Assembly: GCA_947589125.1 (NCBI GenBank)
Contig: CANPZZ010000009.1
Coordinates: forward strand, 1 to 36,390
Reading direction: 5' to 3'
Origin: an uncultured Lachnospiraceae bacterium
Lineage (GTDB): Bacteria > Bacillota > Clostridia > Lachnospirales > Lachnospiraceae
DNA: 36,390 nucleotides
The notes under the pieces are model-generated. The model had not been told where the DNA came from. It did not search any database and worked only from the letters and a program-made list of their open reading frames with translations. This document shows positions 6,710 through 22,981 of the stretch, in pieces; within the stretch, counting starts at the first letter, position 1; each line of letters begins with the position of its first letter. Both the position numbers and the translations under genes were made by a program.

Positions 6710-7777
6710 ATGAAGATAAAACTTGCCATTCTTGAAAATGATCAGGGATATCTCTCTCGAATCGCAGCCGTTTTCAATACAAGATACGCCGACAAATTTG
6801 AAGTATATTCTTTTACAGACAAGGCGATTGCCTTGTCTACTCTTGAGACGGCTAAAATAGATGTTCTGGTAGCGAGTGACAGCTTTGATATCGATGTAAA
6901 TGTATTGCCGAAGAGGTGCGGATTTGCTTACCTTGTGGACTCTGCCGAGATGACGGAGTTTAATGGACAGAAGGTAATTTGCAAGTTCCAGAAGGCAGAA
7001 TTAATTTATAAAGGCGTTCTTAGTATTTATTCTGAAAAGGCGGAAGCGCTGTATGGAATCGGAGGAGGGAACACGAACTGTCAGGTCCTGATGTTCCAGG
7101 CGGCTGGCGGCGGCGTAGGTGTGTCTTCTATGGCGGCTGCATGTGCGTTACATATTGCCGCGCAGGGGAAGAAGGTTCTGTATTTAAATCTTGAAAGATA
7201 TGGCGCTTCAGACGTGTTCTTTTCTGCGGACGGTTCGTTCTGTTTCAGCGATGTGATTTATGCGTTAAAAAGCAGGAAGACGAATCTGTCGCTGAAGCTT
7301 GAAAGCTGTGTCAAGCGTGATCCCAGAGGCGTCGATTTCTATGAGCAGCCCAGGGTTGCGCTTGATATGCTGGAAATGAACGGCGAAGATACTTTGCGTC
7401 TTATCTCAGAACTGAAAGCGATGGGTAATTATGATTATATCATAATTGACCGTGATTTTGGACTGGATCAGGATTCTCTGGCGCTTTATCGGCAGGCGCA
7501 TACGATTGTGTGGGTAAGCGACGGTTCTGAAACGGCGAATGCAAAAACGCAGAGAGCTTATCATGCGTTGGAAGCTTTGGAGCGAAATGCGGACGTGCCG
7601 GTATTGGGGCGCATAGCACTCGTTTATAACCGTTTCAGCAACAAAACAGGGCATTTGGTAGCAGATCTGGGATTGAGAAGTCTGGGCGGTGCTCCCCGGT
7701 ATGAACATATGGATTCAAGAAGCGTTATGGAGCAGCTGTCCAAATTATCTGTTTTTGATTCTCTGATGCAGGGGTGA
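6710..7777 (+). CDS. TadZ/CpaE-like pilus localisation protein with degenerate P-loop
   Basis: 355 residues in two parts. Residues 1-105 look like an atypical receiver domain: beta-alpha pattern KLAILEND...KIDVLVASDSF, without a clear phosphoacceptor Asp at the usual strand end. Residues 124-355 are a ParA/MinD-type fold: QVLMFQAAGGGVGVSSMAAA (P-loop region 131-140), KKVLYLNLERYG, and YDYIIIDRDFG as Walker-B-like strand. In the P-loop both signature lysines of the KGGxGKS form are replaced (G and V), so ATP hydrolysis is doubtful. TadZ proteins place the Tad apparatus in the cell and recruit TadA. It is the first gene of the operon, preceded by a GGTGGGGGT ribosome site. Confidence 0.85.
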   Translation: MKIKLAILENDQGYLSRIAAVFNTRYADKFEVYSFTDKAIALSTLETAKIDVLVASDSFDIDVNVLPKRCGFAYLVDSAEMTEFNGQKVICKFQKAELIYKGVLSIYSEKAEALYGIGGGNTNCQVLMFQAAGGGVGVSSMAAACALHIAAQGKKVLYLNLERYGASDVFFSADGSFCFSDVIYALKSRKTNLSLKLESCVKRDPRGVDFYEQPRVALDMLEMNGEDTLRLISELKAMGNYDYIIIDRDFGLDQDSLALYRQAHTIVWVSDGSETANAKTQRAYHALEALERNADVPVLGRIALVYNRFSNKTGHLVADLGLRSLGGAPRYEHMDSRSVMEQLSKLSVFDSLMQG

Positions 7778-7781
7778 TTGT

Positions 7782-9020
7782 ATGGATTACGAACAGGAGC
7801 AGCAGCTTGTAGCTGATATAAGGCAGAATGTCAGTGAAACTCTTCCTCTGAGCAAGATGGAGGATGCTGAACTGGAAGAGAAGATTGAGGAAATCGTTCT
7901 GAACAGGCTTGCGAACAGTTATTGTTCAATTGAACAGAAGGTTTCGATTGTACAGCAGGTATATAGTTCTATTCGTGGTTTTGGGCTGCTCGATTCCATT
8001 ATTCGCGATGATACGATCACTGAGGTAATGATAAATGGACCGGATCATATATTTATTGAGCAGAAGGGCCGTTTATTTAAGCTGGATAAGAAATTTGAGA
8101 GCCAGCGCAGGCTGGAGGACGTTATTCAAAGAATTGTGGGACTGGCCGGCCGTGAGGTAAACCAGGCGAATCCAATCTGTGATACCAGGCTTCCGGATGG
8201 CTCGCGTGTGAATGTGGTTCTTCCGCCGATTGCTCTTTGCGGTCCGACGCTTACTATCCGAAAGTTCTCGAAGGAACCTATGACAATTGAGAAATTGATC
8301 TCATATGGTTCGATAACGCGGGAAATTGCCGACAAGCTGGAACTTTTGGTCAGGGCAAAATACAATATTTTTATATGCGGCGGAACGGGATCCGGCAAGA
8401 CTACGTTCCTCAATGCCTTGTCCAACTATATTCCGAAGGACGAGCGCGTTATCACGATAGAAGATTCTGCGGAGCTGCAGATTACGGGCGTCGAAAACCT
8501 GGTAAGCCTTGAAACCAGGAATGCGAACGCTTCCGGCGCAGGGCAGATCACAATACGTGATCTGATTAAATCTTCCCTCCGTATGAGACCGGAGCGCATC
8601 GTGGTCGGAGAAGTCCGCGGCGGCGAGGCTCTGGATATGCTTCAGGCTATGAATACTGGTCATGACGGTTCCCTGTCAACCGGCCATGCTAACTCGACTC
8701 ACGATATGTTAAGCCGATTAGAGACAATGGTGCTGCAGGGAGCGGACGGACTTCCGCTGGAAGCGATTCGTCAGCAGATTGCCTCGGCGCTTGATATCAT
8801 TATCCATTTGTCCAGATTAAGGGATAAATCGAGAAAGACCATGGAAATTACGGAAGTTGTCGGCTATAAGGACGGACAGATCGTCCTGAATCCGCTGTAT
8901 GTGTTTGAGGAAGACGAAAACAGCACGCTGGATAAAGTGTCAGGCAGCCTGAAACGGACGAAGAATCCGATGCAGAATGTTTTTAAGCTTCAGCTGTCAG
9001 GAATCAGAACAGAGATCTGA
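7782..9020 (+). CDS. tadA: TadA/CpaF-like pilus assembly ATPase
   Basis: 412 residues of the VirB11/GspE secretion ATPase superfamily, CpaF branch. Seen are the N-terminal helical domain, TEVMINGPDHIFIEQKGRL (about 80-98), Walker A GGTGSGKT (200-207), the Asp-box-like VITIEDSAELQI (223-234), Walker B RIVVGEVRGGEALDM (272-286), and the His box TGHANSTHDMLSRL (300-313). All catalytic motifs look intact. As a cytoplasmic hexamer it powers polymerisation, and in some systems retraction, of Flp pili through the TadB/TadC platform. It starts 4 bp after the TadZ stop, implying translational coupling. Confidence 0.95.
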   Translation: MDYEQEQQLVADIRQNVSETLPLSKMEDAELEEKIEEIVLNRLANSYCSIEQKVSIVQQVYSSIRGFGLLDSIIRDDTITEVMINGPDHIFIEQKGRLFKLDKKFESQRRLEDVIQRIVGLAGREVNQANPICDTRLPDGSRVNVVLPPIALCGPTLTIRKFSKEPMTIEKLISYGSITREIADKLELLVRAKYNIFICGGTGSGKTTFLNALSNYIPKDERVITIEDSAELQITGVENLVSLETRNANASGAGQITIRDLIKSSLRMRPERIVVGEVRGGEALDMLQAMNTGHDGSLSTGHANSTHDMLSRLETMVLQGADGLPLEAIRQQIASALDIIIHLSRLRDKSRKTMEITEVVGYKDGQIVLNPLYVFEEDENSTLDKVSGSLKRTKNPMQNVFKLQLSGIRTEI

Positions 9021-9033
9021 GGTGAGGAGTAGT

Positions 9034-9879
9034 ATGGCGAAGAAAAATGAACCGAAAGAACCGAAATATTATCCGTCTCCGCTAAACAATGAGATGCTGA
9101 ATTACAAGGTGTACTACATGTCTGTTGGAGAGAAAATACTTTATTTCCTTCTGACATTTGTGCTGGGTGGTCTGGTAGGATACGTTTTCTACGGCGGCCT
9201 GTTCAAATACGATGGCGAGGCGACAACAGCGACATACATAAGCAATGTTGTGGTATTTGCCGCAGTAGGCCTCATAGCGGCGAAAGTCTTTCTTCCTGCG
9301 ATCAATGAAAGTCTGCTGAAAAAAAGGAATAAACAGCTGCAAAAGCAATTTATGGACATGCTGGAAGGTCTTTCGGCTTCTCTGTCTGCAGGCAATACGG
9401 TAAATGATTCTTTTTTGAATGCGAGAAATGATATGCGGAATCAATATACGGATGACGATTATATCATTAAGGAACTGGATGAGATTGTATCCGGGCTGAA
9501 TAACGGAAGAACTTTGGAGGAGATGCTTGCCGATTTCGGTAAAAGGAGCAATAACGAGGATGTTTATAATTTCAGTAATGTTATGAGCAACTGTTACCGT
9601 CTTGGAGGTAATTTTAATGATGTTGTAAGACGTACCCGTGGGATCATTGGAGATAAGATTTCGATCTCGGAAGAGATTGATACCAAGCTGGCGTCCAACA
9701 AATTACAGCATAACGCGATGTGTATTATGCCGATCGCCCTGGTTGCCATGCTGAAGGTTGCCAGCCCGGATTTTGCTGATAATCTTTCTTCAATGCTGGG
9801 TGTGCTTGCGACAACGATCGCTGTTGGCATATTTGTGGCGTCCTATTTCTGGGGAAAAAAGATTATAGATATTGGGTGA
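9034..9879 (+). CDS. tadB: TadB-like inner-membrane platform protein
   Basis: 281 residues with a GspF/T2SSF-type domain. Two membrane segments lie near residues 31-52 and 65-85. A cytoplasmic helical domain (about 95-225) holds LLKKRNKQLQKQFMDMLEGLSASLSAGNTVNDSF and the EIVSGLNNGRTLEEML stretch. Two closely spaced membrane segments follow near the C-terminus. Platform proteins couple TadA to the growing pilus. ATG 9034 is chosen because GAGGTGAGG lies just upstream; the open frame extends back into tadA, but those residues are a shadow. Gap to tadA is 13 bp and to the next gene 6 bp. Confidence 0.9.
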   Translation: MAKKNEPKEPKYYPSPLNNEMLNYKVYYMSVGEKILYFLLTFVLGGLVGYVFYGGLFKYDGEATTATYISNVVVFAAVGLIAAKVFLPAINESLLKKRNKQLQKQFMDMLEGLSASLSAGNTVNDSFLNARNDMRNQYTDDDYIIKELDEIVSGLNNGRTLEEMLADFGKRSNNEDVYNFSNVMSNCYRLGGNFNDVVRRTRGIIGDKISISEEIDTKLASNKLQHNAMCIMPIALVAMLKVASPDFADNLSSMLGVLATTIAVGIFVASYFWGKKIIDIG

Positions 9880-9885
9880 TGAAAA

Positions 9886-10752
9886 ATGAGGATGATCATA
9901 TTAGCGGTAGGAACGGTATTGACGGTAATTTTTATCATATTCCTGTTTAAGGGAGCGGGATACGACTATATGCTGGAGCCTTTGGACGGCGATGATTTTC
10001 CGCTGAAGACTTTGTATTCGGCTGGTCTGGCACTGCAGGATCTGAAGATCGGAAGACTTCGGGGAAAGATTGGAGATAAACTCCGCCAGGACTGTTCGCT
10101 GATTTATACAAGGCAGTTCAGTGAATATTACGCACGCATTATATGGGCGCAGATCCTTTCCTTTGCGTTGTTTTTCCCGGCGGTCGCGTTTGTTGCCGCG
10201 GGTATCCTGTCGGATGATATGACGATGATGTGTGTGCTGGCGGGGATAGGTCTCTGCGTTCTGTCGGCCTATTACTTCTTCAATCATACGGGAGAGAAGG
10301 TAAAAGAACGGCAGAATGAATGTGAAAAAGAATTTCCAAACGCGATATCAAAGCTTGCGCTGATTGTGAATTCCGGCGTGATTCTTCATGAGGCATGGGA
10401 AATGGTTGCTTACGGTAAGGATGCCCTGATTTATGATATGATGAAGAAATCCTGTGAGGCGATGAGCAACGGAAGGTCTGATATCGACGCAATCCATGAT
10501 TTCGGAGTGCAGACAAACTCTGATGATATCAAGAAATTTACGTCGGCGCTGATTCAGAGCATTGAACGAGGCGGCGGAGATCTGCCGCAGTTTCTTATTA
10601 ATCAGTCGGCGGAATTATGGGCGAACCGCAGGCAGGTTATGCTTCAAAAGGGAGAGGCGGCGGCCAGCGCGCTTCTTATACCGATCGCCCTGATGTTCTT
10701 TGGCGTAATGCTCATTGTAATTGCGGCTGCGGTGCAGAGTTTTTCTTTATAA
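9886..10752 (+). CDS. tadC: TadC-like inner-membrane platform protein
   Basis: 288 residues, the second T2SSF-type platform protein. A hydrophobic N-terminal helix (1-22) is followed by a short loop, two membrane helices around residues 85-130, a cytoplasmic domain with CEKEFPNAISKLALIVNSGVILHEAWEM and SALIQSIERGGGDLPQFL, and a last helix SALLIPIALMFFGVMLIVIAAAVQSF. TadB and TadC are thought to act as a pair. It is separated from tadB by only 6 bp, with a weak ribosome site (GGGTGATGA), so expression probably depends on coupling. It ends at the C-terminal helix without a tail. Confidence 0.88.
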   Translation: MRMIILAVGTVLTVIFIIFLFKGAGYDYMLEPLDGDDFPLKTLYSAGLALQDLKIGRLRGKIGDKLRQDCSLIYTRQFSEYYARIIWAQILSFALFFPAVAFVAAGILSDDMTMMCVLAGIGLCVLSAYYFFNHTGEKVKERQNECEKEFPNAISKLALIVNSGVILHEAWEMVAYGKDALIYDMMKKSCEAMSNGRSDIDAIHDFGVQTNSDDIKKFTSALIQSIERGGGDLPQFLINQSAELWANRRQVMLQKGEAAASALLIPIALMFFGVMLIVIAAAVQSFSL

Positions 10753-10807
10753 AGGTATCAACAAAACGGTGTTTTGTGGATATAAAAAAATTAAGGAGGC
10801 AGGAGAA

Positions 10808-11014
10808 ATGCTGGAATCGTTACTGTGGAGGGCAAGGCTGGAAACAACAAGGTTGCTTCGGGATGTGCGGGATGATGAGAGCGGCGATACAAACTTTATC
10901 TCGATCCTCATTATTCTGGGTATAGTTATTCTTTTGGCGGGTACCTTTATGGGGTTCAGAGACCAGATCGTTGGACAGGTTCAGGAAATCATTAACGGCT
11001 TCACGATCCATTAA
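10808..11014 (+). CDS. Flp-type small pilin (major pilin candidate)
   Basis: 68 residues: a charged N-terminal leader of 26 residues ending DDESG, a single hydrophobic helix (about 30-50, ISILIILGIVILLAGTFMGF) and a short polar tail of 18 residues. Size, topology and place between tadC and the prepilin peptidase make it the Flp pilin. If cut after Gly26 the mature protein has only 42 residues. The Glu normally found at position 5 after the cut is Ile here (G-DTNFI), an oddity for a major pilin. ATG 10808 is chosen because the strong site AAGGAGG (10793-10799) lies 8 nt upstream; the frame is open further up but that overlaps tadC. A hairpin follows the stop. Confidence 0.82.
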   Translation: MLESLLWRARLETTRLLRDVRDDESGDTNFISILIILGIVILLAGTFMGFRDQIVGQVQEIINGFTIH

Positions 11015-11068: not shown

Positions 11069-11100
11069 GAAGATATGCTGGGTTGATCGAGGAGGAACAT

Positions 11101-11784
11101 ATGTCGGTTATTGTCGCAATGCTGACTGCAATAGCATGTGCGGGGATTTCTTATATTACTCTGGATAAGAATATAACAGATCATGTCCGGATCCTAAAAC
11201 GCAGGGCTGGGACGGAAACGGAGGTCAGCAGGGTTTTGAGCAGGGGTACGATCTATGCCCTCACCCTGGGGATTTTTTTTCTGTCTTTCGCGGCGGCGTT
11301 GAAGATTACGACAAAGTTGTCTGATGTGATCAATATATGTAAGATGCTGACTGCTTTGTTCTGCCTATGCGGCGCGGCCTGTATGGATTACAGGGAGTAT
11401 CGGATCCCGAATATATTTCCGCTTGTTTTAGCCGTGGCGGGTATTCTCTGTCTGGCGGCCGGATATATTACCGGTCAGCCGGGAGGAGTCTCGTATATCG
11501 TCAGCAGCGCGTTTGCTGCCGTGGTTTCAGTCCTCTGCCTGATAGGGGCATCCATATTAACGAATCATGGAATAGGGTTCGGGGATATTAAGCTGGTTGG
11601 TGCGCTGGCGATCAGCGGAGGAGTATATACGATATATGGAACACTGTTGTATGGCGTTTTGTTATGCGCAGCGATGGCAGTCGTACTTTTTGTAACGAAA
11701 AAAAAGAAGCTTCAGGAATCGCTGCCTTTTGGACCGTTTCTGCTGGCGGGATATGCGATAACGATATTTATCTTTAAATTTTAA
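11101..11784 (+). CDS. Prepilin peptidase, A24A type (TadV/CpaA-like)
   Basis: 227 residues, polytopic, with about six hydrophobic segments. The two catalytic aspartates of GXGD aspartic peptidases are visible in CMDYREYRIPN (about residue 98) and GIGFGDIKLVGAL (about 162). This enzyme removes the leader peptide of Flp pilin and TadE/F pseudopilins on the cytoplasmic side of the membrane. The extra N-terminal part before the first motif (about 90 residues with three hydrophobic stretches) is longer than in minimal TadV proteins, which start close to the first Asp. Start ATG 11101 follows GAGGAGG; an upstream in-frame TTG/ATT region was rejected because the ribosome site sits inside it. Confidence 0.9.
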   Translation: MSVIVAMLTAIACAGISYITLDKNITDHVRILKRRAGTETEVSRVLSRGTIYALTLGIFFLSFAAALKITTKLSDVINICKMLTALFCLCGAACMDYREYRIPNIFPLVLAVAGILCLAAGYITGQPGGVSYIVSSAFAAVVSVLCLIGASILTNHGIGFGDIKLVGALAISGGVYTIYGTLLYGVLLCAAMAVVLFVTKKKKLQESLPFGPFLLAGYAITIFIFKF

Positions 11785-11797
11785 GGAAGAGTGGATC

Positions 11798-13111
11798 ATG
11801 AAAAAAATACGGGCAATATTATCGGTAATTCTTGTGATAGCTATTTGTGCGGCCTGGGTTGCACAGATAACCAGCGGTGGGGCCTCAGAATCTGAGTATG
11901 ACAAATATTTGGACAGCGCGGAAAACTATATGGCGCGCTCGTTGTACCAAAAGGCCGCGGACTCGTACAAATCAGCTCTTTTGCTTAAAGAGGATAAGGA
12001 GATCCGTGATAAGTGGATTCAGGCAAATCATATGGCCTACGATGATGAAGTTATATCAAAGAACTCGTTTGCTTCAGCCCTTTCCGAGGCGTGCGGCATT
12101 TATCCTGAAGAAGCTCCTTACTGGGAAACGCTGTTGGAATTATATATTCAGAATTCGGATTATGCGTCCGCGCATTCTTCCTATAACAAGTCCGTAAGAG
12201 CCGGAGCGGAAAGCGAGAAACTGACGGAACTGGGCCTGGAGATCGAATATTCATTTACTTCCTCAAGCAGGACGTATAAAGAGGTCTATGAGAGCCCTGA
12301 CGGATATTACACTTTATACAGTGATCCGCATTGGGGCGTTATGGAGCCGGATTCAGAATGGCTTTATGAATGCGAGTACCAGTATATCAGTCCGGTCAGC
12401 GATGATCGGATAGCGCTGTGTACGTCGGAAAAAGGGCAGCGGGTTATCAGCGACAGCGGCGTTGTACAGGCGATCGTGACGGAACCGGTTCTCAGCGCGA
12501 GAGCAGTTTTCGAGGGGATTCTGCCGGTTCGCGGCGAGGATGGAATGTGGAGATATCTGGATTGTAATGAAAATAAATATCTATCCGGGGAGTATGACGA
12601 CGCGTCGTCATATGTTAATGGGATTTCTGCTGTTCGGAAAGGAAGCGGGTGGAGTCTGATCAATACGGATGGAGACAAGATAACCGAAACCGGTTTTGAA
12701 GATATCAAACTTTACGGAAATGGCGATTATGTATATAAAGACCGTATGATCGCGTCCGTGGGCGGCCGTTATGGTCTGTATGACGGCAAAGGGGAAGAGG
12801 TGACGGCTCTGAACGCTGTAGACGCGGATATTTATCTTGATGATTATATCGCGTATCAGGATGAATCCGGAAAATGGGGTTTTATGGATTCTGAGGGCAA
12901 GGTTGTGATCGAGCCGCAATATGAGGGAGCCAGGAGTTTCTCCAACGGACTAGCCGCGGTGCTGGCAGATGGTTATTGGGGATACATAAATCATGACAGA
13001 CAGATGGCGATTGAGAATCAGTTCCTTGACGCGGGCTACTTCACGAAAGATGGCGTAGCTTTTGTCAGTACGTTCGAAGGATTTTATTATATGATAAAGC
13101 TTCGGTTTTGA
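11798..13111 (+). CDS. Exported TPR and WG-repeat protein in the Tad operon
   Basis: 437 residues. A hydrophobic N-terminus (5-22) acts as signal peptide or anchor. Residues 30-145 carry TPR-like helices (YDKYLDSAENYMARSLYQKAADSYKSALLL and YIQNSDYASAHSSYNKSV). From about 160 to the end there are about six WG-type repeats: HWGVMEPDSEW, GMWRYLDCNENK, GWSLINTDGDK, RYGLYDGKGEE, KWGFMDSEGKVVIEPQYEGARSFSNGLAAV and YWGYINHDRQM. WG repeats are beta-rich modules of unknown binding partner, frequent in surface proteins. The place between the peptidase and TadE suggests an accessory or sensory role on the outside of the membrane. The TPR could stand in for TadD, which is not otherwise present. That is inference. 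Confidence 0.8.
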   Translation: MKKIRAILSVILVIAICAAWVAQITSGGASESEYDKYLDSAENYMARSLYQKAADSYKSALLLKEDKEIRDKWIQANHMAYDDEVISKNSFASALSEACGIYPEEAPYWETLLELYIQNSDYASAHSSYNKSVRAGAESEKLTELGLEIEYSFTSSSRTYKEVYESPDGYYTLYSDPHWGVMEPDSEWLYECEYQYISPVSDDRIALCTSEKGQRVISDSGVVQAIVTEPVLSARAVFEGILPVRGEDGMWRYLDCNENKYLSGEYDDASSYVNGISAVRKGSGWSLINTDGDKITETGFEDIKLYGNGDYVYKDRMIASVGGRYGLYDGKGEEVTALNAVDADIYLDDYIAYQDESGKWGFMDSEGKVVIEPQYEGARSFSNGLAAVLADGYWGYINHDRQMAIENQFLDAGYFTKDGVAFVSTFEGFYYMIKLRF

Positions 13112-13125
13112 GAAAGGAGCGGGTT

Positions 13126-13770: not shown

Positions 13771-13780
13771 GGAGTTGTCT

Positions 13781-16714
13781 ATGAACAGATTAGCTAGAAT
13801 AAAGAGAGCCTTGCGGAACAGTTATTATCACAAATATAAGTATATCAATGGAACCAGAGGCGTTATTTCGCTTTTTCTGGCTATTCTGATGCTTCCTTTT
13901 GTTACGATCGCGGGCAGTCTGATTAATGCAGCCCGCGTGAGCAGTGCTGTGGCCATATTTGACGAGGCCCTCTGCAACGCGTCAAATTCTACTCTGGGAA
14001 CTTACGATTCCTTCCTTCGCAAACGTTTTGGTCTGCTGGCTATGAGCCAGAATCTGTCCGGAACCGGAAAAGCGCTTAATCAGTATACGGTGTCGGATCT
14101 GATATCGGAAACCTTTGAGAAATACATGGAAGAAAATCTGAAAATGTTAAGTAATACTTATATTACGTCTGAAAGTAAGTCAGAGGGTATCTATTCTCTG
14201 TCTGATCCGGATGTCCTGCTGTACCAGACTTTGGAATACAGTAAATATAGCGTGCCTACAAAGCTGGTGGAAGACAGTCTGCCTTTCGACGATATGTTAA
14301 AGGCTTTGGAAGCGATGATTCCCGGAAGTTCCTTTTTTGACCTTATTACGGCTGGTGCCGGGGCGGCTGACAGTTTTGTTACGCTTTCAGAGGATTTGGG
14401 ACTGCTGAAGGATGTTATCAGCGAAGAACAGACGGCATATTCGAATTATTCGACCGCATATAATAAGTTTTCATCGGATGTTACCAATTATCTGAGTAAA
14501 AAGCAGGAGATGGAGACTGCTTTACAGCAGCTGCAGGCTACTGTTGATGAAGAACGAGCAAAAATATCTGATCTGGCTGATCAGATCGAGGGCCTGGAAG
14601 GACAGATCCAAAGTTTGCAGGAGGATCAGAAAAAGACAGGCGCAAACCATTCGGAGCAGATTTCTCAGCTTCAGGAAGAGCTGAATCAGGTCAGGGAAGA
14701 TAATGCGGATGATATAGAGGCGTGGGAAACAGCCAGAAATAACTACAACACTTCGAAAAGTTCTTATGAAACGCAGCTGGCAAATTTGGAAAAAGCTGTG
14801 AAAGAGAGCAAAACCAGTTATTCTTCGTCCATCAGCGGGTTATCTTCCAAGCTGAAGGACGTTCAGACAAAGCTCACCACGGTTCAGGGTGATTTTGTGT
14901 CAATGGAAACGGCTGTAGAGAATACCGTAGTTTCCGCGGGAACAACTGCTCTTAATTCCATGAAATCGGATAATAGCGACCGGATCAAGAAGCTGGAAGA
15001 ACAGATTAAAGAATCCGATGATGAGGACGCAAAGAAGGAACTGACTGAGCTGAAGGACAGTAATGTCGATATTGATAATACTAAGACAGTTCTGGATGCC
15101 TACAAATCCGGCTATACGAACGGCCTCTCTTCGGTAAAGGAAGATGTGGCGCAGTTTAATGTGGAAATATATTCACAGGCGGTCGAGAGTCTTACTTCTC
15201 TGAAAACAAAGGTCGACAAATATGGAACAGTGGATGGAAGCGATGATTTTATTATAACTTCCGTGAGCCGCTCAGAGTATTTCAGAGAGTTTTCCGGCCT
15301 GCTTACGAAAGAAGCGGTGGAAAAAGCGGAATCCGAGTGTGTTGAGCAAATGGTAAGCGCGTCCATCTGGGGTGTAATAAAGGCAATTGTATCCTTTTTC
15401 GAGGCGCTGCTTTCGGTTACCCTTGCCTATGACCAGAAACTCGGAGCCGTGATTGATTCGAATTATTATAATAGTACTTACAATGGATTGCCTTCTGAAA
15501 AAGACAGAACTAAGTTCCCGCTGTACGAGGGATCCGATGTGGCTGGAGACAAGGCGGCGGCGCAAAAGAACAAAGAGCTGTTTGGAGATTATTCAGCTAC
15601 AGACCGGGATCTGTTTGTGGATTTTGACCTGTTTGAGGCGCTGCAGAATATTTTCACGGCATTTTCGACGATTACGGGCGATATCGCCGAACTTGTATCC
15701 GGTATCGGGCTGCTTTTCCTGGCTCAGTTACTGAAGGAAATGTATGATGCCGTCTGTACCATTGTAAATAATATAACTGGCATGGTCACATTTCTGGGGA
15801 ATGTTTTAAAAAATCCCGGAGAATATATTGGGAAAAAGCTGTTATTGACCGGGTATGTTCATTACATGACATCTGACCGTGTCACTTATAAGACCGGAAA
15901 AGCCCTGACCGGAACCGCGTTTAATGAAAGAGGGCAGGAGACCACTTCCCCTTTGCCGTCAAACAAGGTTACTGACATGCTGGCGCTTGTTCGAACGATA
16001 TACAGCGCTATCAACGGCGGAACGGAAAAATGCTTTGTGGGTGCGGAGAAAGAGTATATTATGTTCGGATCCCCATCAGAGCTCGTAAATCAGTGCGCGG
16101 TATTTGGAGGCGTATATCTGGTAAGACTGGTGGCTAACCTGTTTTTGATTCTGACTAATCCAGAAGTGGAAAGTATCGCGGCTTCCGCCACGATCGCTTA
16201 TCCGATCGTGATGCTGGTGTATATACTGGTGGAACCGCTGATAGATACGATCCTGCTGGTTAATGGCGGGGAGGTTCGTCTTGTAAAGACAAAAGTATAC
16301 CTGACTCCTTCGGGAATATTTGATTTGATCACTTCTTTTTCAAAATTAAAATTGAATACAGCACAGGCGGAACAGCTGAAAAAAGACCTGGGAGTAACCG
16401 ATACCAAATCTTCGTCCGGAGGTACGGATGTTGGAAAGTATTTTACCGTGGACTATTCGAAGACATTGTTTATTATAATGCTTTTGTTTACGCCGCGAAA
16501 GAAGATGCTGTCGCGGCTGAGCAATATAATTGAAATGGAGGCGGTGGAATACATGAACAATAATAAAGTGGTCGCTTCAAACGGTTTGTTCGATCTGGAT
16601 TACAGTTATACATATATACGAACGGAAGCGACATTTACAATGAATGAGTTTATTCCGGTTTCCGGAGAGGCCATAGGTTTCAATAAAAAACGCGTTGTCT
16701 ACAAAGGGTATTAA
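13781..16714 (+). CDS. Large TadG-like protein with central coiled coil
   Basis: 977 residues. The N-terminus NGTRGVISLFLAILMLPFVTIAGSLINAARV is a pilin-like helix of TadG type, without Glu at position 5. It is followed by the motif of small residues common in TadE/G (SNSTLGTYDSFLRKRFGLL). A coiled coil spans about 230-445. After it come several hydrophobic stretches (about 528-553, 630-690, 785-800 and 805-835) suggesting a membrane-embedded C-terminal half, and a final region ending YKGY. It resembles proteins I recall as DUF5702 in clostridial Tad loci (not verified). Its size and coiled coil suggest a scaffold spanning membrane and wall. Start ATG 13781, with GAGGAG 6 nt upstream; the frame upstream overlaps tadE. 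Confidence 0.75.
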   Translation: MNRLARIKRALRNSYYHKYKYINGTRGVISLFLAILMLPFVTIAGSLINAARVSSAVAIFDEALCNASNSTLGTYDSFLRKRFGLLAMSQNLSGTGKALNQYTVSDLISETFEKYMEENLKMLSNTYITSESKSEGIYSLSDPDVLLYQTLEYSKYSVPTKLVEDSLPFDDMLKALEAMIPGSSFFDLITAGAGAADSFVTLSEDLGLLKDVISEEQTAYSNYSTAYNKFSSDVTNYLSKKQEMETALQQLQATVDEERAKISDLADQIEGLEGQIQSLQEDQKKTGANHSEQISQLQEELNQVREDNADDIEAWETARNNYNTSKSSYETQLANLEKAVKESKTSYSSSISGLSSKLKDVQTKLTTVQGDFVSMETAVENTVVSAGTTALNSMKSDNSDRIKKLEEQIKESDDEDAKKELTELKDSNVDIDNTKTVLDAYKSGYTNGLSSVKEDVAQFNVEIYSQAVESLTSLKTKVDKYGTVDGSDDFIITSVSRSEYFREFSGLLTKEAVEKAESECVEQMVSASIWGVIKAIVSFFEALLSVTLAYDQKLGAVIDSNYYNSTYNGLPSEKDRTKFPLYEGSDVAGDKAAAQKNKELFGDYSATDRDLFVDFDLFEALQNIFTAFSTITGDIAELVSGIGLLFLAQLLKEMYDAVCTIVNNITGMVTFLGNVLKNPGEYIGKKLLLTGYVHYMTSDRVTYKTGKALTGTAFNERGQETTSPLPSNKVTDMLALVRTIYSAINGGTEKCFVGAEKEYIMFGSPSELVNQCAVFGGVYLVRLVANLFLILTNPEVESIAASATIAYPIVMLVYILVEPLIDTILLVNGGEVRLVKTKVYLTPSGIFDLITSFSKLKLNTAQAEQLKKDLGVTDTKSSSGGTDVGKYFTVDYSKTLFIIMLLFTPRKKMLSRLSNIIEMEAVEYMNNNKVVASNGLFDLDYSYTYIRTEATFTMNEFIPVSGEAIGFNKKRVVYKGY

Positions 16715-16716: not shown

Positions 16717-17364
16717 ATGAAGAGATTAAAGTCGGAAAAGGGGCTGCTGTCCCTTGAAGCAAGCATTGCCGTGACGATTTTTCTGTTTCTGATGTTGTTT
16801 ATGTATAGCTATTTTGTTGTTTTTGAAACCAGAAATGAAATTGCTCATGTGCTTCTTGCGACGACCAACAGTTTGTCGCTGGATCCATACGGCAGTGAGA
16901 AGATTAACAGTTCGGGTTTTGTCGCGCAGCTGATCGCGGAACTTTATCAGGCGGCAGTGAATTCTGATGACGGGTTTGTCAGTTCAGAATTGTGGACCAG
17001 GGTTTCAAGTTCAGATGTGGATAATGATACCTGGGATGGCAGCATTTATGTCCCGTCTTCCGGAGATGAGGAGAAAACTCCGGACGAGTACGGAAATGTC
17101 AGCGCCGATTCCACACTGCTGGCATCTGTTGTAAAAGCGCGTTTTGTCGCGTATCTGGCAGACGGGAATGAAAGTGAAGCGGATCGGATCCTGAAACGGT
17201 ATCATGTGGTAAACGGTCTTGATGGCCTGGATTTTTCCGGAACCCATGTCGCTTCTTCCAATATTTACGTGAAGGTCACATACACGTTGGAGCCTGAGTT
17301 TAGGGTATTTAATTGGAGACCATTGCAATTCGAACAGTCGGCATGTTCTAAATTATGGAAATAG
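16717..17364 (+). CDS. Second TadE/TadF-like pseudopilin
   Basis: 215 residues. MKRLKSEKG-LLSLEAS plus a long hydrophobic helix (about 12-34) is a clear prepilin leader: Gly9 before the cut and Glu14 at mature position 5. The remaining domain is acidic and Ser-rich (SSDVDNDTWDG...SSGDEEKTPDEYGN) and ends CSKLWK. It starts 2 bp after the TadG-like gene with AAAGGG 8 nt upstream. Together with the other TadE-like protein it probably forms a minor-pilin complex needed for initiation of the fibre. That role is inferred from TadE/TadF in proteobacterial loci. Confidence 0.78.
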   Translation: MKRLKSEKGLLSLEASIAVTIFLFLMLFMYSYFVVFETRNEIAHVLLATTNSLSLDPYGSEKINSSGFVAQLIAELYQAAVNSDDGFVSSELWTRVSSSDVDNDTWDGSIYVPSSGDEEKTPDEYGNVSADSTLLASVVKARFVAYLADGNESEADRILKRYHVVNGLDGLDFSGTHVASSNIYVKVTYTLEPEFRVFNWRPLQFEQSACSKLWK

Positions 17365-17380: not shown

Positions 17381-19027
17381 ATGAGTATGTTCAGTTATGA
17401 GAACCAGGGAAGTACTACCTATTTGGTATGCTCTTTTGCTCCCGAGGAGACATTGGATACCATGAGTATTGGAATGCTCACCAATAACAGGATACCGGGG
17501 CTGGCCCAGGCTTTGTTTATGCAGGTCAATACGGACAGATTTATTAAGTATAATGTGTCTTCGCGCGTCCCGGTCAGCCAGCTGTTTTCCGGGATTGTCA
17601 ATAAAAAGAGGCTTCTTGGAGTGTTCAGCGGCATTGTGAACGCGCTTATCTGCGCGGAAGATTATATGATCGATTCAAATTCGATCCTGCTGGACCTGAA
17701 TTACATTTTCGCAGACGTGTCGACCTGCGATACGGTTCTTGTTTGTGTCCCTGTGGTATCCGCGGGGAAAACGCAGACGGATTTAGGCACATTTTTTAAG
17801 AATATTATGTTCAGTACTCAGTTTGATCAGACAGAAAACTGCAGTTACGTTGCAAAGATCCTCAGTTATCTGAACAGCGCGCCGGTGTTTTCTGTATCGG
17901 ATTTCGCCGCAGTGATTAAGGGGATCCTGGCAGAGGGTACGGCTCAGCCGATACGTACAGACGCTTCGCAGCCGGCGTATCAGCGGGTGCCCCAGCCGGC
18001 GCCTCAGCCGGCATATAATCCGGAGATCAAGCCGGTACCGCAGCCAGTTCAGCAGCAGGAGATGCAGCCCCGGATAAATCCTATACAGCAGGTGCCGCCC
18101 GTTGCTCCGCAGCCTGTACCGATGCCTCCAGTGCCCCCGGTGAAACCTCCGACAGAGGCGAAACCGGTAAGACCCGCGGAATCTTCAAAACCGCAGGTCC
18201 AGCCGTCGTTCCAGATCCCCGGTAAGAATCAGCCTGACACCGCCCGGGCACAGCAGGAGACGCAGCCGTCCGGAGATTCGATCAGTCTGTTCTATCTGCT
18301 TCAGCATTACAATAAGGATAACGCCGCGTTATATAAAGCGCAGAAGGAAGCGGCTAAACAGGCCAAACAGACCAAACAGGGTTCAAAATCTGCTTCCAAG
18401 CAGAAAAAGGGGAAGGAGCCGCAGCCTCAGCAGCAGATGCCGGCGGGATATGCAATACCGGGACAGCCCCAGCCGCCGGTGCCGCCGGTTGGGGGATATG
18501 GAACAGCCGGGCAGAATGTACCGCCGATACCGCAGACGTATCAGCCGGGGTATAATGCTCCGGTTCAGATGAACGGTTTCCAGCCGGGTACGCAGGGAAC
18601 CCCTGTATCGGGCATGGGGCTGAAATCTCAGCCTTTAGTTGCGGAGGCTGATTTTGGGGATACCATATACAAAGATTCTGAAGAGGATTCTTCGACTACG
18701 GTTATGCGGTCTGACAGGGAAGGCCAAAGGCTGAGTCCGCAGTTAGTCAGACGCAGTAATAATGAGAAGATTCCTATTGATAAAAGCCTGTTCCATATTG
18801 GGCGTGATGAAAATTATAATGATTACGTAGTTTCGAATAATCGAAGTGTGGGAAGGAGCCATTGCCATATTGTGTTCAGAGATGGCGAATACTTTATTGT
18901 TGATGACAATTCAAAAAACCATACATATGTGGACGGAAAAGAAATAACATCGGGAACAGAAGTGAAACTGACACATGGGACACGGGTCAGCCTGTCTGAT
19001 GAAGAATTTGAGTTTAGACTGTTCTAG
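17381..19027 (+). CDS. FHA-domain phosphothreonine-binding protein with N-terminal conserved domain
   Basis: 548 residues. The first 185 form a folded domain (I recall DUF6382 with this layout, not verified) containing the segment LFSGIVNKKRLLGVFSGIVNALI. Residues about 190-430 are a Pro/Gln-rich, probably disordered linker, with a basic patch of Lys/Gln around 325-350. Residues 445-548 are an FHA domain: FHIGRDENYNDYVVSNNRSVGRSHCHIVF, then DDNSKNHTYVDGKEI, keeping the Gly-Arg, Ser-His and Asn/Thr residues that hold phosphothreonine. FHA proteins are standard readers of Hanks-kinase phosphorylation. The kinase and phosphatase follow in the same operon. No signal peptide, so it is cytoplasmic. 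Confidence 0.9.
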   Translation: MSMFSYENQGSTTYLVCSFAPEETLDTMSIGMLTNNRIPGLAQALFMQVNTDRFIKYNVSSRVPVSQLFSGIVNKKRLLGVFSGIVNALICAEDYMIDSNSILLDLNYIFADVSTCDTVLVCVPVVSAGKTQTDLGTFFKNIMFSTQFDQTENCSYVAKILSYLNSAPVFSVSDFAAVIKGILAEGTAQPIRTDASQPAYQRVPQPAPQPAYNPEIKPVPQPVQQQEMQPRINPIQQVPPVAPQPVPMPPVPPVKPPTEAKPVRPAESSKPQVQPSFQIPGKNQPDTARAQQETQPSGDSISLFYLLQHYNKDNAALYKAQKEAAKQAKQTKQGSKSASKQKKGKEPQPQQQMPAGYAIPGQPQPPVPPVGGYGTAGQNVPPIPQTYQPGYNAPVQMNGFQPGTQGTPVSGMGLKSQPLVAEADFGDTIYKDSEEDSSTTVMRSDREGQRLSPQLVRRSNNEKIPIDKSLFHIGRDENYNDYVVSNNRSVGRSHCHIVFRDGEYFIVDDNSKNHTYVDGKEITSGTEVKLTHGTRVSLSDEEFEFRLF

Positions 19028-19035
19028 GAGGGCAT

Positions 19036-19800
19036 ATGGATTTCTGGGTATCTGCATCTACAGATATAGGAACGAAGAAACAGGTTAATGAGGACAGGGT
19101 GCTGGTTAGAAAGGTTACGACAAAAACGGGACCAATGGTTTTTGCCGTACTTTGCGATGGGATGGGAGGTCTGTCTCATGGGGAACTGGCCAGTTCTGTG
19201 GTGCTTGATGCGTTCTCAGAGTGGATGTATACTGAACTTCCGGGCCTTTCGCAGTATCCCCTGGAAGATCATGTTATCCGGAAACAGTGGAGCAGTCTGA
19301 TCACAAAGAAGAACAACTGGCTGCATGCGTATGGAGAACAGAATCAGTGCAGCCTGGGAACAACGGTTACGGCGCTGTTGTTAACTCAAAACCGATACTA
19401 TCTTCTGAATATCGGTGACTCACGAGCTTATGAGATCGGCAGTCAGGTTATACAACTGACTCAGGATCATACGCTGGTAGCCGAGGAGATACGTTTGGGA
19501 AATCTGACGGAAGAGCAGGCAGAACAGTCGCCCATCCGCAATGTTCTTTCCAGATGTGTAGGCGTTATGGAGTCGGTTTCTCCGGATATGTTTTTTGGCG
19601 ATGTAAAGCATGGTTCTGCATATGTACTTTGTTCAGACGGATTCCGCCACTGTATTTCCAGCTTGGAAATGAAGCAGTATCTGCTGGATTCACAGCAGAG
19701 TGAGCGGGAGATGAAGCAGTGGGAAGAGTATCTGATCGAGCTGAACAAGAGCCGCGGGGAAAAAGATAATATTTCAGTTATTACGATATTAACGAAATAA
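19036..19800 (+). CDS. PP2C-type Ser/Thr protein phosphatase
   Basis: 254 residues with the full set of PPM/PP2C metal-binding motifs: STDIGTKKQVNEDRV (residues 8-22), VLCDGMGGLSHGELAS (38-53), LGTTVTALLL, LLNIGDSRAYEIG, TQDHTLV, YVLCSDGFRHCIS and GEKDNISVITI at the end. It is a soluble catalytic domain only, about the length of clostridial PrpC/Stp enzymes, and should oppose the kinase two genes downstream. The ribosome site AGGAGG overlaps the stop of the FHA gene and is only 4 nt from ATG, an unusually short spacing that suggests coupling. Confidence 0.95.
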   Translation: MDFWVSASTDIGTKKQVNEDRVLVRKVTTKTGPMVFAVLCDGMGGLSHGELASSVVLDAFSEWMYTELPGLSQYPLEDHVIRKQWSSLITKKNNWLHAYGEQNQCSLGTTVTALLLTQNRYYLLNIGDSRAYEIGSQVIQLTQDHTLVAEEIRLGNLTEEQAEQSPIRNVLSRCVGVMESVSPDMFFGDVKHGSAYVLCSDGFRHCISSLEMKQYLLDSQQSEREMKQWEEYLIELNKSRGEKDNISVITILTK

Positions 19801-19834
19801 CAGAGACGATGGCATGTCGTAAAAAGGGGAAAGA

Positions 19835-20023
19835 ATGGAACTGATCGTAACAGATGAATTGTTGTTTTATGGCGGAATGCTGACGGCGGGTGTATCCGCC
19901 GTTCTGGCGATGTTCTTCTTTTTTGTTTCAAAGATAAGGAAGGAAAGGCTGAAAGCGCGGCTCGACGCCGAATACGGATTACCGGAACAGAAAAGAAAAA
20001 AGAAAAAAGGACAGAAGGAGTAA
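19835..20023 (+). CDS. 62-aa single-pass membrane peptide between phosphatase and kinase
   Basis: A short acidic N-terminus, one hydrophobic helix (about residues 8-32, LLFYGGMLTAGVSAVLAMFFFFVSKI) and a strongly basic C-terminal tail (RKERLKARLDAEYGLPEQKRKKKKGQKE). A ribosome site AAAAAGGGGAAAG precedes ATG 19835 and the kinase starts 6 bp after its stop, so it is very probably translated. No family recognised. The basic tail would lie in the cytoplasm. It may tether or modulate the kinase/phosphatase or be an added pilus component; neither can be shown. Confidence 0.72.
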   Translation: MELIVTDELLFYGGMLTAGVSAVLAMFFFFVSKIRKERLKARLDAEYGLPEQKRKKKKGQKE

Positions 20024-20029
20024 GCGTCC

Positions 20030-22981
20030 ATGGGTCAGATCATTGCCTCTACATATGAAATTATAGAAAAGATCGGCGCCGGCGGCGGGGGAAACGTATA
20101 TCTTGCCAATCATCTGCGGCTGAACAAGAAGGTGGTTCTCAAGGCTGATAAGCGTAAGGTCACAACGCGTCAGGAACTGCTGCGGCGTGAAGTAGATGTC
20201 CTGAAGAACCTGACCCATCCCAATATACCGGCGGTATACGATTTCTTTATTGAAGATGATATTGTATACACGGCCATGGATTACATCGAGGGCGAGAGTC
20301 TGGATAAACCGCTTAAGCGGGGCGAAAGATATCCTCAGGCGCAGGTGATCCGATGGGCGATTCAGCTTCTGGGAGCTTTGGATTATCTGCATAGTCCCAC
20401 TCATGGGGATCCCCCAAGAGGATATGTTCATAGCGATATAAAGCCTGCTAACCTGATGCGAAGGCCGAATAACGATATCTGCCTCATTGATTTTAACATT
20501 ACATTGGCATTAGGAGAGGAAAATGTAATCGGCTGCAGCGCCGGATATGCTTCGCCTGAACATTATGGAATTGATTTTTCATCAGACGAAGACGCAACCG
20601 CAACCCGAAGAACCAGAATGGGGGATAAAACTTCGGGTTCAGCCCGAGGGGCTGAAGCGAAAAATACTGCCGGTTCCTCTGATGAGACCCTGACCAGAGA
20701 GGATCCGGAGAAAACAGAGTCCCGCGTTCTTGATCCTCAGGCGGCGCAGGCATTTAATCAGAGAGGGACAACGACTTCCACTTCCGCGAAGAGGATCGTG
20801 GTTCCTGACGTGCGCTCTGATATCTATAGCACCGGGGCTACACTTTATCATCTGTTAAGCGGCCGCCGCCCGGCAAGAGACGCACTGGAAGTAGAGCCGC
20901 TTTCTGAAAAAGAATTCAGTCCTCAGATCGTCCGGATCATAACGAAGGCTATGAATCCTAACCCCAATCTTCGGTATCAGACAGCGGCGGAAATGCTGTA
21001 TGATTTTACTCATCTGAGAGAAAATGATCCGAGAGTAAAACGTATGAGGCGTGTGAACCGTATTATGGCGGGTGTATTCTCGCTGCTGGTTGCCGCGGGA
21101 GCCGCATCAGCGTTCATCGGCCTCAAACGCATGCAGACTACTGAGAACTGGTTAAAACTTGCTGAGTACTCCCGCAACGCTCTGGAGACCGGCGATTCTG
21201 CGCTGGCGATCGATTATGCTCTGCAGGCACTGCCGGAGCAGACAGGAAGCATTCTGGAGCCGCCATATACGGCTCAGGCCCAGAATGCGCTGACGGATGC
21301 GCTGGCAGTTTATGATCTCTACGATGGTTATAAGACCCAGGGGGCTGTGAACCTGCCTGCGGCGCCGCTTGCGATGGAAATATCTCCGGACGGTCGGACG
21401 GCGGTTTGCATCTATGCTTATGAGGCCGCTGTGATCGATACGGAAACAGCGCAGATTCTTAAGACACTGCCGGTGGCGGAATCCGCGCTCAGCGAGGCTC
21501 ATTATCTGGATGCGGATACGATTCTGCTGGCGGGAGCGGATGGGATCACGGCTTATGATATTCCAAACGATCAGGTTCTATGGACTGGCGGGCCAGCGAC
21601 ATCTATCGCCGTATCCGGCGACGGAAAACGGGCGGCGGCGGTATACCGGGATGAGCAGACGGCGGCGGTATATGATACGGCGGACGGAAAGCTGATCAAA
21701 ACAGTCGACTTCGGCGGGCGGAAGCAGAGTGTGACAGTGAATGACATTTTCGCCAATCCGCGGGACAATCTTTTGGCGCTGAATGAGGATGGCACTCTTC
21801 TGGGAGTCAGCTTTGCAGATGGATCCCTTCAGATTTTTGATCTCGAGAATCCGGATGACGACATTATCCTTTTTGATCCGGATTCCGGTTACAGCCATTT
21901 TGAAGGAGGCTTCTATCAGGAGTATTTCGCATTCTCCGCGACGACGCCGGGGGATTCTGTATTCAGCGTTATTGATACGGTGAATATGGAGCAGACAGGC
22001 GGTTTCGATTCTGACCAGGCGTTTGGGGTGGAAACGGATGGGAGCGGTATCTATGTGCAGACGGAGAACCTGCTGGTGAAGATCGATCCGGTGACAGGAG
22101 AGCAGGAGCCGTTGGTGACGACGCCGGATAATATCCTTCGATTCGCCAGGGGCGGCGAGCATACGCTAATTACGTCGGAGGACAAGTTTATGTTCTACGA
22201 CAGCTACGCAAACCTGATGTCTACGCATACGAAAGAGTACGGCGGCGATTTTGTTCAGTTGGCGGAAGGCATCGCTCTGGTTGGCAGCATGGATTCACCG
22301 CTGGTGCGTGTAATGAAATACATCGGCTATCCGGATGCGCAGGTATTTTCCTACGATTCATCCTATTTGCACGATGAGGCGCGGCTGAGTGCAGACGGGA
22401 AGACGGTGATGCTGTTCGCCTACGATCAGTTCCGGCTGTACGGGCTGGACGGCGGGCTGATCGCGGAGGTGGATATTCCGGACGCGGAGCAGGTCTATGA
22501 TCAGCAGTACCGGCGGGACGCGGACGGTTCCCGGCTGGAAGTGATCTATAACGACGGGCTTATCCGCTCCTACAGCGCCGCGGATGGCGCGCTTCTGGAA
22601 GAGCAGAGCGGCGACGCGCCTGATTCCGATATGTATGAGGAATTCTTTACGGACAATTTCCGAATCACCTCGCCGCTTCACGGGACCCCGGCGGCCTATG
22701 ACAGGGAGAGCGGACGGCTGGTGCGGGAACTGGAAAAGGACGCGTATCTGACGTATGTGACACAGACAGGGGATTACATCGTGACGCAGTACACGACAGC
22801 GGACGGATATTATTACGGACAATTGCTGAACGGGCAGTGCGAAGTGCTGGCGGAACTTCCGTATCTTTGCGATGTGTATGACGGAAAGCTGTATTTTGAC
22901 TATCCGACCGGTCATGTGAGCGAGTCCCGCATTTATGATATCGACGAGCTGATCGGGATGGCTCGTGAAAAGAAAGATTAA
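20030..22981 (+). CDS. Hanks-type Ser/Thr kinase with transmembrane helix and extracellular propeller-like sensor
   Basis: 983 residues. The kinase domain (1-335) has the G-loop GAGGGGNV (16-23), VVLK with Lys38, HSDIKPANL (134-142; Asp136 catalytic), IDFN (153-156) in place of DFG, and SPE (175-177). A 75-residue polar, Thr/Ser/Glu-rich insert (about 184-258) sits where the activation segment leads to DIYSTGATLYHLLSG (264-278). One membrane helix spans about 346-366. Outside, a helical stretch (371-425) precedes repeated beta-strand blocks (about 440-975; e.g. AMEISPDGRTAVCIY, SIAVSGDGKRAAAVY, GVSFADGSLQIFDLE), resembling a WD40/PQQ-like propeller. Unlike PrkC kinases it lacks PASTA domains. 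It probably senses an extracytoplasmic cue and phosphorylates pilus or FHA proteins. It is the last gene of the operon. Confidence 0.92.
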   Translation: MGQIIASTYEIIEKIGAGGGGNVYLANHLRLNKKVVLKADKRKVTTRQELLRREVDVLKNLTHPNIPAVYDFFIEDDIVYTAMDYIEGESLDKPLKRGERYPQAQVIRWAIQLLGALDYLHSPTHGDPPRGYVHSDIKPANLMRRPNNDICLIDFNITLALGEENVIGCSAGYASPEHYGIDFSSDEDATATRRTRMGDKTSGSARGAEAKNTAGSSDETLTREDPEKTESRVLDPQAAQAFNQRGTTTSTSAKRIVVPDVRSDIYSTGATLYHLLSGRRPARDALEVEPLSEKEFSPQIVRIITKAMNPNPNLRYQTAAEMLYDFTHLRENDPRVKRMRRVNRIMAGVFSLLVAAGAASAFIGLKRMQTTENWLKLAEYSRNALETGDSALAIDYALQALPEQTGSILEPPYTAQAQNALTDALAVYDLYDGYKTQGAVNLPAAPLAMEISPDGRTAVCIYAYEAAVIDTETAQILKTLPVAESALSEAHYLDADTILLAGADGITAYDIPNDQVLWTGGPATSIAVSGDGKRAAAVYRDEQTAAVYDTADGKLIKTVDFGGRKQSVTVNDIFANPRDNLLALNEDGTLLGVSFADGSLQIFDLENPDDDIILFDPDSGYSHFEGGFYQEYFAFSATTPGDSVFSVIDTVNMEQTGGFDSDQAFGVETDGSGIYVQTENLLVKIDPVTGEQEPLVTTPDNILRFARGGEHTLITSEDKFMFYDSYANLMSTHTKEYGGDFVQLAEGIALVGSMDSPLVRVMKYIGYPDAQVFSYDSSYLHDEARLSADGKTVMLFAYDQFRLYGLDGGLIAEVDIPDAEQVYDQQYRRDADGSRLEVIYNDGLIRSYSAADGALLEEQSGDAPDSDMYEEFFTDNFRITSPLHGTPAAYDRESGRLVRELEKDAYLTYVTQTGDYIVTQYTTADGYYYGQLLNGQCEVLAELPYLCDVYDGKLYFDYPTGHVSESRIYDIDELIGMAREKKD

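Follow-up and report, generated by a model that had tools for sequence, protein, structure and literature searches.

A distinct subfamily of monoderm Tad pili in Lachnospiraceae encoded with a kinase, phosphatase and FHA adaptor cassette

The stretch of DNA considered here (the window) is an entire contig, C9, of 36,390 bases, from the 2.5-Mb assembly (219 contigs, 88% complete) of an uncultured Lachnospiraceae bacterium. Its Tad pilus operon belongs to a distinct subfamily of monoderm Tad pili, designated type 2, in which the pilus genes are accompanied by a cassette encoding a kinase, an FHA protein and a PP2C phosphatase. A sequence-only reading of the window had proposed fourteen collinear + strand genes from 6710 to 22981, and the open reading frames proved real at those coordinates. 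That the Tad genes lead into an FHA protein, a PP2C phosphatase, a 62-residue membrane peptide and a membrane kinase is likewise confirmed by open reading frames and Pfam matches; on the + strand these are the adaptor (17381..19027), the phosphatase (19036..19800), the peptide (19835..20023) and the kinase (20030..22981). To the model as a whole, in which type-2 Tad pili have a dedicated, exchangeable Ser/Thr phospho-switch, we give a probability of about 0.6.

Conservation of the cassette in one Tad subfamily

Ordinary Tad loci, here type 1, were represented by 39 examples: a copy on contig C42 of the source genome, 18 loci from relatives reached through the domain DUF6382, and 20 reached through a list of TadA matches. 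Their usual gene order is TadZ-A-B-C-TadG-TadE-(peptidase)-TadE-DUF6382. DUF6382, found in 384 of 397 family genomes, is present in 38 of the 39, with an FHA domain also in 31; among the 20 loci picked by TadA, 19 have it (the other 19 were picked by DUF6382 itself). The DUF6382-FHA adaptor is present in type-1 loci too, with no kinase as a neighbor: an adjacent kinase or PP2C gene was found in none of the 39, a kinase fragment on the opposite strand, close to one end of L040, not being scored as adjacent.

The type-2 set was obtained by searching 200 genomes of the family with the TadA of the window. It consists of the 23 best matches (at least 493 bits), plus one locus, G065, that lies outside these and was added from a kinase search with its kinase already known; because the search gave best matches only, lower-scoring type-2 loci may be missed. 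In a phylogenetic tree the 24 type-2 TadA sequences form a single clade against 37 type-1 rows, with branch support of 100/99. L155 (TadA 59%, no FHA, no kinase) is among those 37 rows and outside the 39 type-1 loci, and L038, on contig C26 of the source genome, is a lone TadA-like ATPase. Presence of genes was scored with profiles built for this analysis on stretches of up to 20 kb, two of them joined for some loci. Kinase and FHA protein occur together in 18 of the 20 type-2 loci assessable on one contig (17 of 19 without G065), and 17 of these 18 also have PP2C, none being seen in G067. G111 and G016 agree with the pattern, split over contigs; G051 and G012 stop at contig ends and hence are not assessable. 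The sequence-only reading had staked its case on the cassette staying beside Tad genes in relatives. It does so in 18 of 20 type-2 loci versus 0 of 39 of type 1, and with the set kept alongside one Tad subfamily in this way, a one-off accident is ruled out.

Searching named genomes with the alignment of kinases widened this sample to 80 loci, the best of 340 relatives. Most are from Lachnospiraceae and some from Oscillospiraceae or other Clostridia, and the closest matches among these 80 are uncultured Lachnospiraceae. Tad genes accompany the propeller kinase at 54 of the 80 loci, the type VII secretion ATPase EssC at 8, and neither at 18; the two machines occur together at none of the 80 within the stretch fetched. 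Where at least 9 kb upstream of the kinase was available (59 loci), the counts are 45, 7 and 7, respectively. Cultured carriers with Tad genes include Sporofaciens musculi and Schaedlerella arabinosiphila, in both of which kinase and peptide are upstream of TadZ, and Anaeromassilibacillus senegalensis and Clostridium sp. D33t1, in neither of which was PP2C seen within the stretch fetched. Loci L212, L268 and L285 repeat earlier contigs and were excluded from a recount.

The adaptor, the kinase and a recurrent threonine motif

The adaptor consists of DUF6382 (PF19909, 1e-18), a long linker and an FHA domain (PF00498, 6e-14). DUF6382 is predicted to adopt a kinase fold, according to a structure model, Foldseek and VIA, with a C-lobe that must be reduced, given a domain of 170 residues. 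It has no conserved catalytic residues: in a 29-row alignment P124 is the sole invariant position, and Y57 is nearly so. A predicted kinase fold lacking catalytic residues makes the reader of this system a pseudokinase-linker-FHA protein. Among the fold matches is the pseudokinase of Rv3910 (MviN), which pairs with an FHA partner, a likeness to the present adaptor, although there the process is a different one and two separate proteins are involved. EssB was not among the fold matches listed, which lend no support to a direct link with EssB.

The kinase (Pkinase, PF00069, 4e-31) combines a kinase domain bearing an 81-residue insert, a transmembrane helix and a WD40-like propeller region, as alignment, structure model and fold matches indicate. 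The catalytic Lys, the alpha-C Glu, the catalytic-loop Asp and Asn and the metal-binding Asp are invariant in all 11 sequences of our alignment A1, where HRD reads HSD or HGD and DFG reads D-F/Y-N. By its residues it is classed as a Hanks-type Ser/Thr kinase, with predicted activity. Its domain fold resembles that of S. aureus PknB, and the propeller region resembles double WD40 propellers. The insert is Thr-rich and predicted to be disordered, with predicted local distance difference test scores (pLDDT) below 50 for residues 185-256. The sequence-only reading had placed the kinase domain outside the cell; the predicted topology instead points to a cytoplasmic kinase domain, the outside part being the propeller region. 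The 62-residue peptide, which has a single membrane span and no Pfam match, accompanies the propeller kinase on locus maps. In hhalign it matches the membrane-spanning segment of longer TseK-like proteins (probability 91, E 1e-6), bearing in mind that membrane spans match easily and that the tail of the peptide is short.

FHA domains recognize phospho-Thr and are selective for the residue at position +3, and a motif of suitable form, T-x-(V/I/L)-(L/M) in its strict version, is enriched within the cassette over expectation from shuffled sequences. We parsed 62 of 72 distinct kinases for the length of the insert between the APE motif and helix F, 10 being unparsable. Short-insert kinases (44, with 6-19 residues) have a single-span protein as the next gene in 32 cases, and these small proteins, found right after many kinases, have tails with repeats such as ETTVLN and ATMVLG: 68 matches versus 4.5 expected, in 26 proteins, a number reached in 0 of 400 shuffles, with Leu at position +3 in all 68. 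The 18 long-insert kinases (propeller kinases and their sisters, with inserts of 43-117 residues) hold 10 matches in the insert versus 1.2 expected (0 of 400 shuffles), and just two are followed by a single-span protein, one of these with a motif match. The 73 inserts from named loci add 26 matches versus 6.3 expected (0 of 300 shuffles), some with plain repeats of the motif (L261, L284).

The same motif recurs in the adaptor linker. Matches there number 30 versus 6.6 expected in 31 type-1 proteins, 17 versus 2.2 in 21 of type 2 and 19 versus 3.7 in 11 others, so that the strict motif is present in 23 of 31 type-1 and 11 of 21 type-2 linkers; the 52 linkers from named loci hold 33 versus 5.6 expected (0 of 300 shuffles). 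Most sites lie close to the FHA domain: within 80 residues for 23 of 30 in type 1 (16 at 22-25 residues) and 15 of 17 in type 2, and within 60 for 32 of 33 in the named set. The window linker has two candidate phospho-Thr sites, FGDTIY (Thr 428) and STTVM (Thr 439), at 18653..18706 (+) as calculated from residue numbers; they precede the FHA domain by 35 and 24 residues, and STTVM alone fits the strict motif. A narrower TT motif was found 11 times versus 0.8 expected in the type-2 adaptor, and 0 times versus 2.2 in TadA. In a hold-out of 16 partner proteins from newly fetched loci it gave 8 matches versus 0.93 expected, 4 of the 8 coming from L192, a near-copy of the earlier-fetched L191/L110. 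Enrichment of a motif suited to FHA binding at these three places, before the FHA domain, in single-span tails and in the kinase insert, suggests a latch resembling GarA/OdhI rather than phosphorylated pilus proteins.

The model builds on gene content, conservation, clade specificity, the predicted fold of DUF6382, the enrichment and position of the motif, and the exchange of kinases described below; from these we infer Thr phosphorylation, FHA binding to these Thr, a signal, a direction of control and a contact with the motor. The membrane kinase would sense an extracellular cue through its propeller region. Once active, it would phosphorylate Thr-x-(V/I/L)-(L/M) both within the linker of the adaptor and in a docking array, which is either the tail of a single-span partner or the disordered insert of the kinase. 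The FHA domain could bind such phospho-sites in cis, as a self-latch of the GarA/OdhI kind, or in trans, as a capture at the membrane; either may alter what the pseudokinase half can contact on the pilus motor, and PP2C would reset the switch and release the adaptor.

Several observations weigh against this model. Two type-2 loci, G007 and G157, have no cassette, the kinase being absent; in G009 and G067 the kinase lies before TadZ, and G099 has an interrupted operon, with the kinase 28 kb from TadA. The FHA pocket of the window keeps R, H, N and T, but Gly replaces the Ser of the canonical SRxH, a residue that contacts phosphate; so it does in 12 of 20 type-2 FHA domains and 26 of 46 named ones, while Lys replaces the Arg of GR in 23 of 31 type-1 FHA domains and 8 of 39 type-1 loci have no FHA domain at all. 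The motif was first noticed in loci that were later counted, and homologues are not independent. It is far from universal (in 7 of 18 and 18 of 73 long inserts and 24 of 52 named linkers), and the insert and the 62-residue peptide of the window have no strict match. Counted over whole proteins, its excess in the adaptor (2.0-2.5 fold) is not above that in TadA (2.4-2.6 fold), and ratios exceed 1 also for TadC (1.4-1.8), for the TadZ of named loci (2.2) and for the type-2 pilin (2.3). The change from Ser to Gly had appeared to track long-insert kinases (10 of 10 versus 2 of 10, P 0.0007); we rejected this as proof, since of 46 such FHA domains from named Tad loci with a propeller kinase, examined later, just 26 have it.

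Exchange of kinases and other readings of the cassette

Comparison of loci shows an exchange of kinases, both among lineages and across two machines, the Tad pilus and type VII secretion. TadA of G008 and G130 is 87 and 85% identical to that of the window, yet a different kinase sits beside the Tad genes (at most 36%, over the kinase part only). Conversely G114, from the same genus as the window, shares kinase (82%) and peptide (60%), while its TadZ, TadB, FHA and PP2C proteins are distant (27-33%). In these lineages, therefore, the pilus retains its FHA protein and PP2C, and peptide and kinase go together as one unit. Exchange is not universal, since L207 and L208 have all mapped genes in common with the window (TadG 58-59%, kinase 77-78%). 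In the G114 locus (L077), PP2C is separated from the peptide-kinase pair by three extra reading frames, membrane or glycosyltransferase-like by eye.

Tad and EssC contexts are interspersed in the kinase tree, with no separate clades for the two, the 7 label changes comparing with a mean of 8.0 in shuffles, 158 of 500 of which were as low; 24 of the 54 rows of this tree have no context label. In some EssC loci of relatives an FHA protein gene is followed by PP2C and then the kinase, small WXG-like genes being recognizable by eye, and the FHA protein is DUF6382-FHA in L104 and vWA-FHA in L088 and L091; in other kinase loci FHA is fused to trypsin-like or ABC-transporter domains. L105, for example, encodes a trypsin-like protease-FHA fusion at 11581-13128, alongside genes for PP2C, a kinase and another FHA protein, and at the same place L204 has a partner tail with ATMVLG-type repeats. 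L092, L094 and L095 have an FHA-ABC transporter, a small FHA protein and a kinase, by Pfam in L092 and by map in the others. On contig C29 of G111 (L082), a propeller kinase adjoins an EssC gene and a second, frame-broken propeller kinase is present; this locus is probably next to the Tad locus of G111. L108, L214, L226 and L230 have a TadZ-like gene with DUF6382-FHA, PP2C and kinase, no TadA being found; EssC is present in L214 and L226, an arrangement that recalls TsfV of T7SSf as given in the part of PMC11217815 drawn on here.

In the sequence-only reading, the kinase would phosphorylate pilus assembly proteins such as TadZ, TadA and the TadG-like protein, which would then recruit the FHA protein, as in type VI secretion. 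The conservation of the cassette, on which that interpretation also relied, has held up and speaks for this account too; the recruitment step is not supported: the densest candidate docking motifs lie inside the cassette, and for most Tad proteins an excess is not consistent. TadA is the exception, with its 39 matches versus 16 expected and an ETMVL segment like the array repeats of one partner tail, and the ratios above 1 for TadC, TadZ and pilin point the same way. However, the TadA segments (TMVL, TEIM, TEVM) lie inside the folded ATPase; they are conserved in both TadA types, for which reason they were set aside as docking sites; the TT motif separates TadA from the adaptor, and ratios for TadB, TadE1, TadE2, TadG and the peptidase are 0.3-1.15. 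We therefore think this account unlikely, with perhaps one chance in five.

Two other accounts are less probable still, and about equally so. The cassette might be a regulator of type VII secretion that merely lies beside Tad genes, or that serves both machines: it has the same kinds of component as TseJ, TseF and TseD of the type VII system T7SSe (PMC11217815, in the part drawn on here), with the peptide as a possible TseK, Tad and EssC contexts intermix in the kinase tree, EssC is found at 8 of the best 80 named loci, and the propeller kinases of G111 are beside EssC on one contig and probably next to its Tad locus as well. Yet the 88% complete source genome has no WXG100 protein and no EssC over the cut-off, with none in the mapped locus, Tad genes occur at 54 of those 80 loci and both machines at none within the stretch fetched, and the genes for FHA protein and PP2C lie within the Tad operon itself. 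The remaining account, a hitch-hiking envelope-stress island co-transcribed with Tad genes, with the cell wall or the large downstream surface protein as its target, draws on similar kinase loci with vWA, trypsin-like or ABC transporter outputs fused to FHA, and on large reading frames after the kinase in many relatives. It sits poorly with a kinase slot kept in one Tad clade despite differing kinase origin, with the lack of a kinase in every type-1 locus examined, and with the occurrence of DUF6382 in 38 of 39 type-1 loci.

Operon parts, relation to known systems and significance

The remaining genes of the operon, all on the + strand, complete the monoderm Tad (Flp/type IVc) set of TadZ, TadA, TadB/TadC, peptidase, pilin and TadE/TadG-like proteins. 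TadZ, with an atypical receiver and a ParA-like ATPase (6710..7777; PF21194, 1.1e-46), is followed by the TadA/CpaF motor ATPase, of the type-2 clade by its tree position (7782..9020; T2SSE, PF00437, 3e-61), and by the platform proteins TadB (9031..9879, reading frame open from 8977; T2SSF, PF00482, 2e-6) and TadC (9886..10752; PF00482, 5e-10). The Flp-like pilin, of 68 residues (10808..11014, reading frame open from 10721), is recognized solely by a sub-threshold match to Flp1_like (E 0.04) and by profile matches in relatives. Next come an A24 prepilin peptidase (11083..11784; PF01478, 7e-10), a WG-repeat protein with an N-terminal hydrophobic segment that recurs on maps of type-2 loci (11798..13111; PF14903, 2e-30), a TadE-like pseudopilin (13108..13770), a TadG-like DUF5702 protein with a coiled coil (13757..16714; PF18960, 3e-10) and a second, TadE/F-like pseudopilin (16717..17364), both pseudopilins being assigned by position and by a profile from relatives, with no Pfam match. 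The phosphatase (PP2C_2, PF13672, 4e-10) has the metal-binding motifs NEDR, DGMGG, GDSR and CSDG and, by eye, KDN near the C-terminus.

Spacing in the operon is short, as the sequence-only reading had it, over a range wider than the mostly 2-56 bp it gave: computed from reading-frame coordinates, with the starts of TadB and pilin inferred from translations, gaps span -14 to +68 bp, the largest being pilin-peptidase (68 bp) and TadC-pilin (55 bp). The terminator it placed after the operon is there, a strong terminator-like GC-rich hairpin with a T run at 23026..23053 (+), 3' of the kinase gene. The best promoter-like site (11/12) is at 6615-6643, before TadZ; as a class such sites are no commoner than chance (24 versus a shuffle mean of 27.5), and for this reason one at 13062-13090 was disregarded.

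Directly upstream, a divergent helix-turn-helix regulator of Cro/CI type is encoded at 6109..6444 (-) (HTH_3, 2.8e-12), and similar reading frames, by eye, occupy the same position upstream of TadZ in L079 and L085. Downstream and outside the operon, 23200..26919 (+) encodes a large protein of surface type that has Ig-like and choline-binding repeats (Pfam), a possible pilus-associated adhesin or ligand of the propeller; maps show large reading frames downstream of the kinase in many relatives. Farther upstream, a ZMP/ZTP riboswitch (67 bits) at 3910-3992 (+) precedes purine genes for an IMP cyclohydrolase-like protein (reading frame to 4851) and an AICAR transformylase-like protein (4876-6054).

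Threonine phosphorylation by a membrane kinase, a PP2C phosphatase and an FHA protein encoded with an export machine is familiar from PpkA/PppA/Fha of type VI secretion. There the machine is another one, and the FHA protein has another architecture. A type VI case is cited by Garrett et al. 2024 (PMC11217815), whose account, in the part drawn on here, gives T7SSe a TseD kinase, a TseF PPM phosphatase, a DUF6382-FHA protein, TseJ, and a single-span protein, TseK. The window shares with T7SSe the DUF6382-FHA protein, the PPM phosphatase and the membrane kinase, and the order FHA-PP2C-kinase is found also in EssC loci of relatives; the machine differs, being a Tad pilus, and the passages on TseJ, TseK and DUF6382 in that part of the account name neither a kinase fold nor an array of Thr motifs. 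GarA/OdhI and Bdellovibrio DgcB are, in the sections drawn on, self-binding FHA proteins (PMC12321487, PMC6733907), DgcB with a hydrophobic +3 residue, Val (PMC6733907); in contrast, the N-terminal half of the window adaptor is a predicted pseudokinase fold, the motif occurs in partner arrays as well, and self-binding is putative here. FHA proteins have been tied to Tad-like systems in Myxococcus Kil (PMC8460266) and with class III CpaF (PMC12019362), but those systems are diderm, the FHA domain is fused to the ATPase or separate, and the sections drawn on describe no dedicated kinase/PP2C cassette. FHA proteins in Tad-like systems and kinase-phosphatase-FHA sets in type VI secretion and T7SSe are already known, then, and what would be new is a dedicated set in a monoderm Tad subfamily. 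Our search of the open-access literature found no account of a kinase/PP2C/FHA cassette in a monoderm Tad pilus, nor of a kinase fold for DUF6382 or of Thr motif arrays.

On and off switching of Tad pili in monoderm gut bacteria is hardly described in the literature that we found. The model names acceptor residues, a reader and an eraser, and several cultured gut isolates with the kinase beside Tad genes, such as Schaedlerella arabinosiphila DSM 106076 and Sporofaciens musculi WCA-9-b2, make it directly testable. DUF6382, a domain of unknown function, gains a predicted fold and a proposed role, and a reason is offered for the presence of the same accessory genes in type VII and Tad loci. A broader picture, to which we would give somewhat less than even odds, is that a pseudokinase-FHA adaptor with a cis latch is a standard, unrecognised part of Lachnospiraceae Tad systems, that a sensor cassette (a kinase with its docking array, and PP2C) drives it in one pilus subfamily, and that cassettes of this kind pass between Tad pili and type VII secretion, two unrelated envelope machines that may then have a signalling socket in common: arrays of Thr-x-hydrophobic-Leu, with FHA domains as their readers. 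The findings suggest a plug-in control unit for bacterial surface machines.

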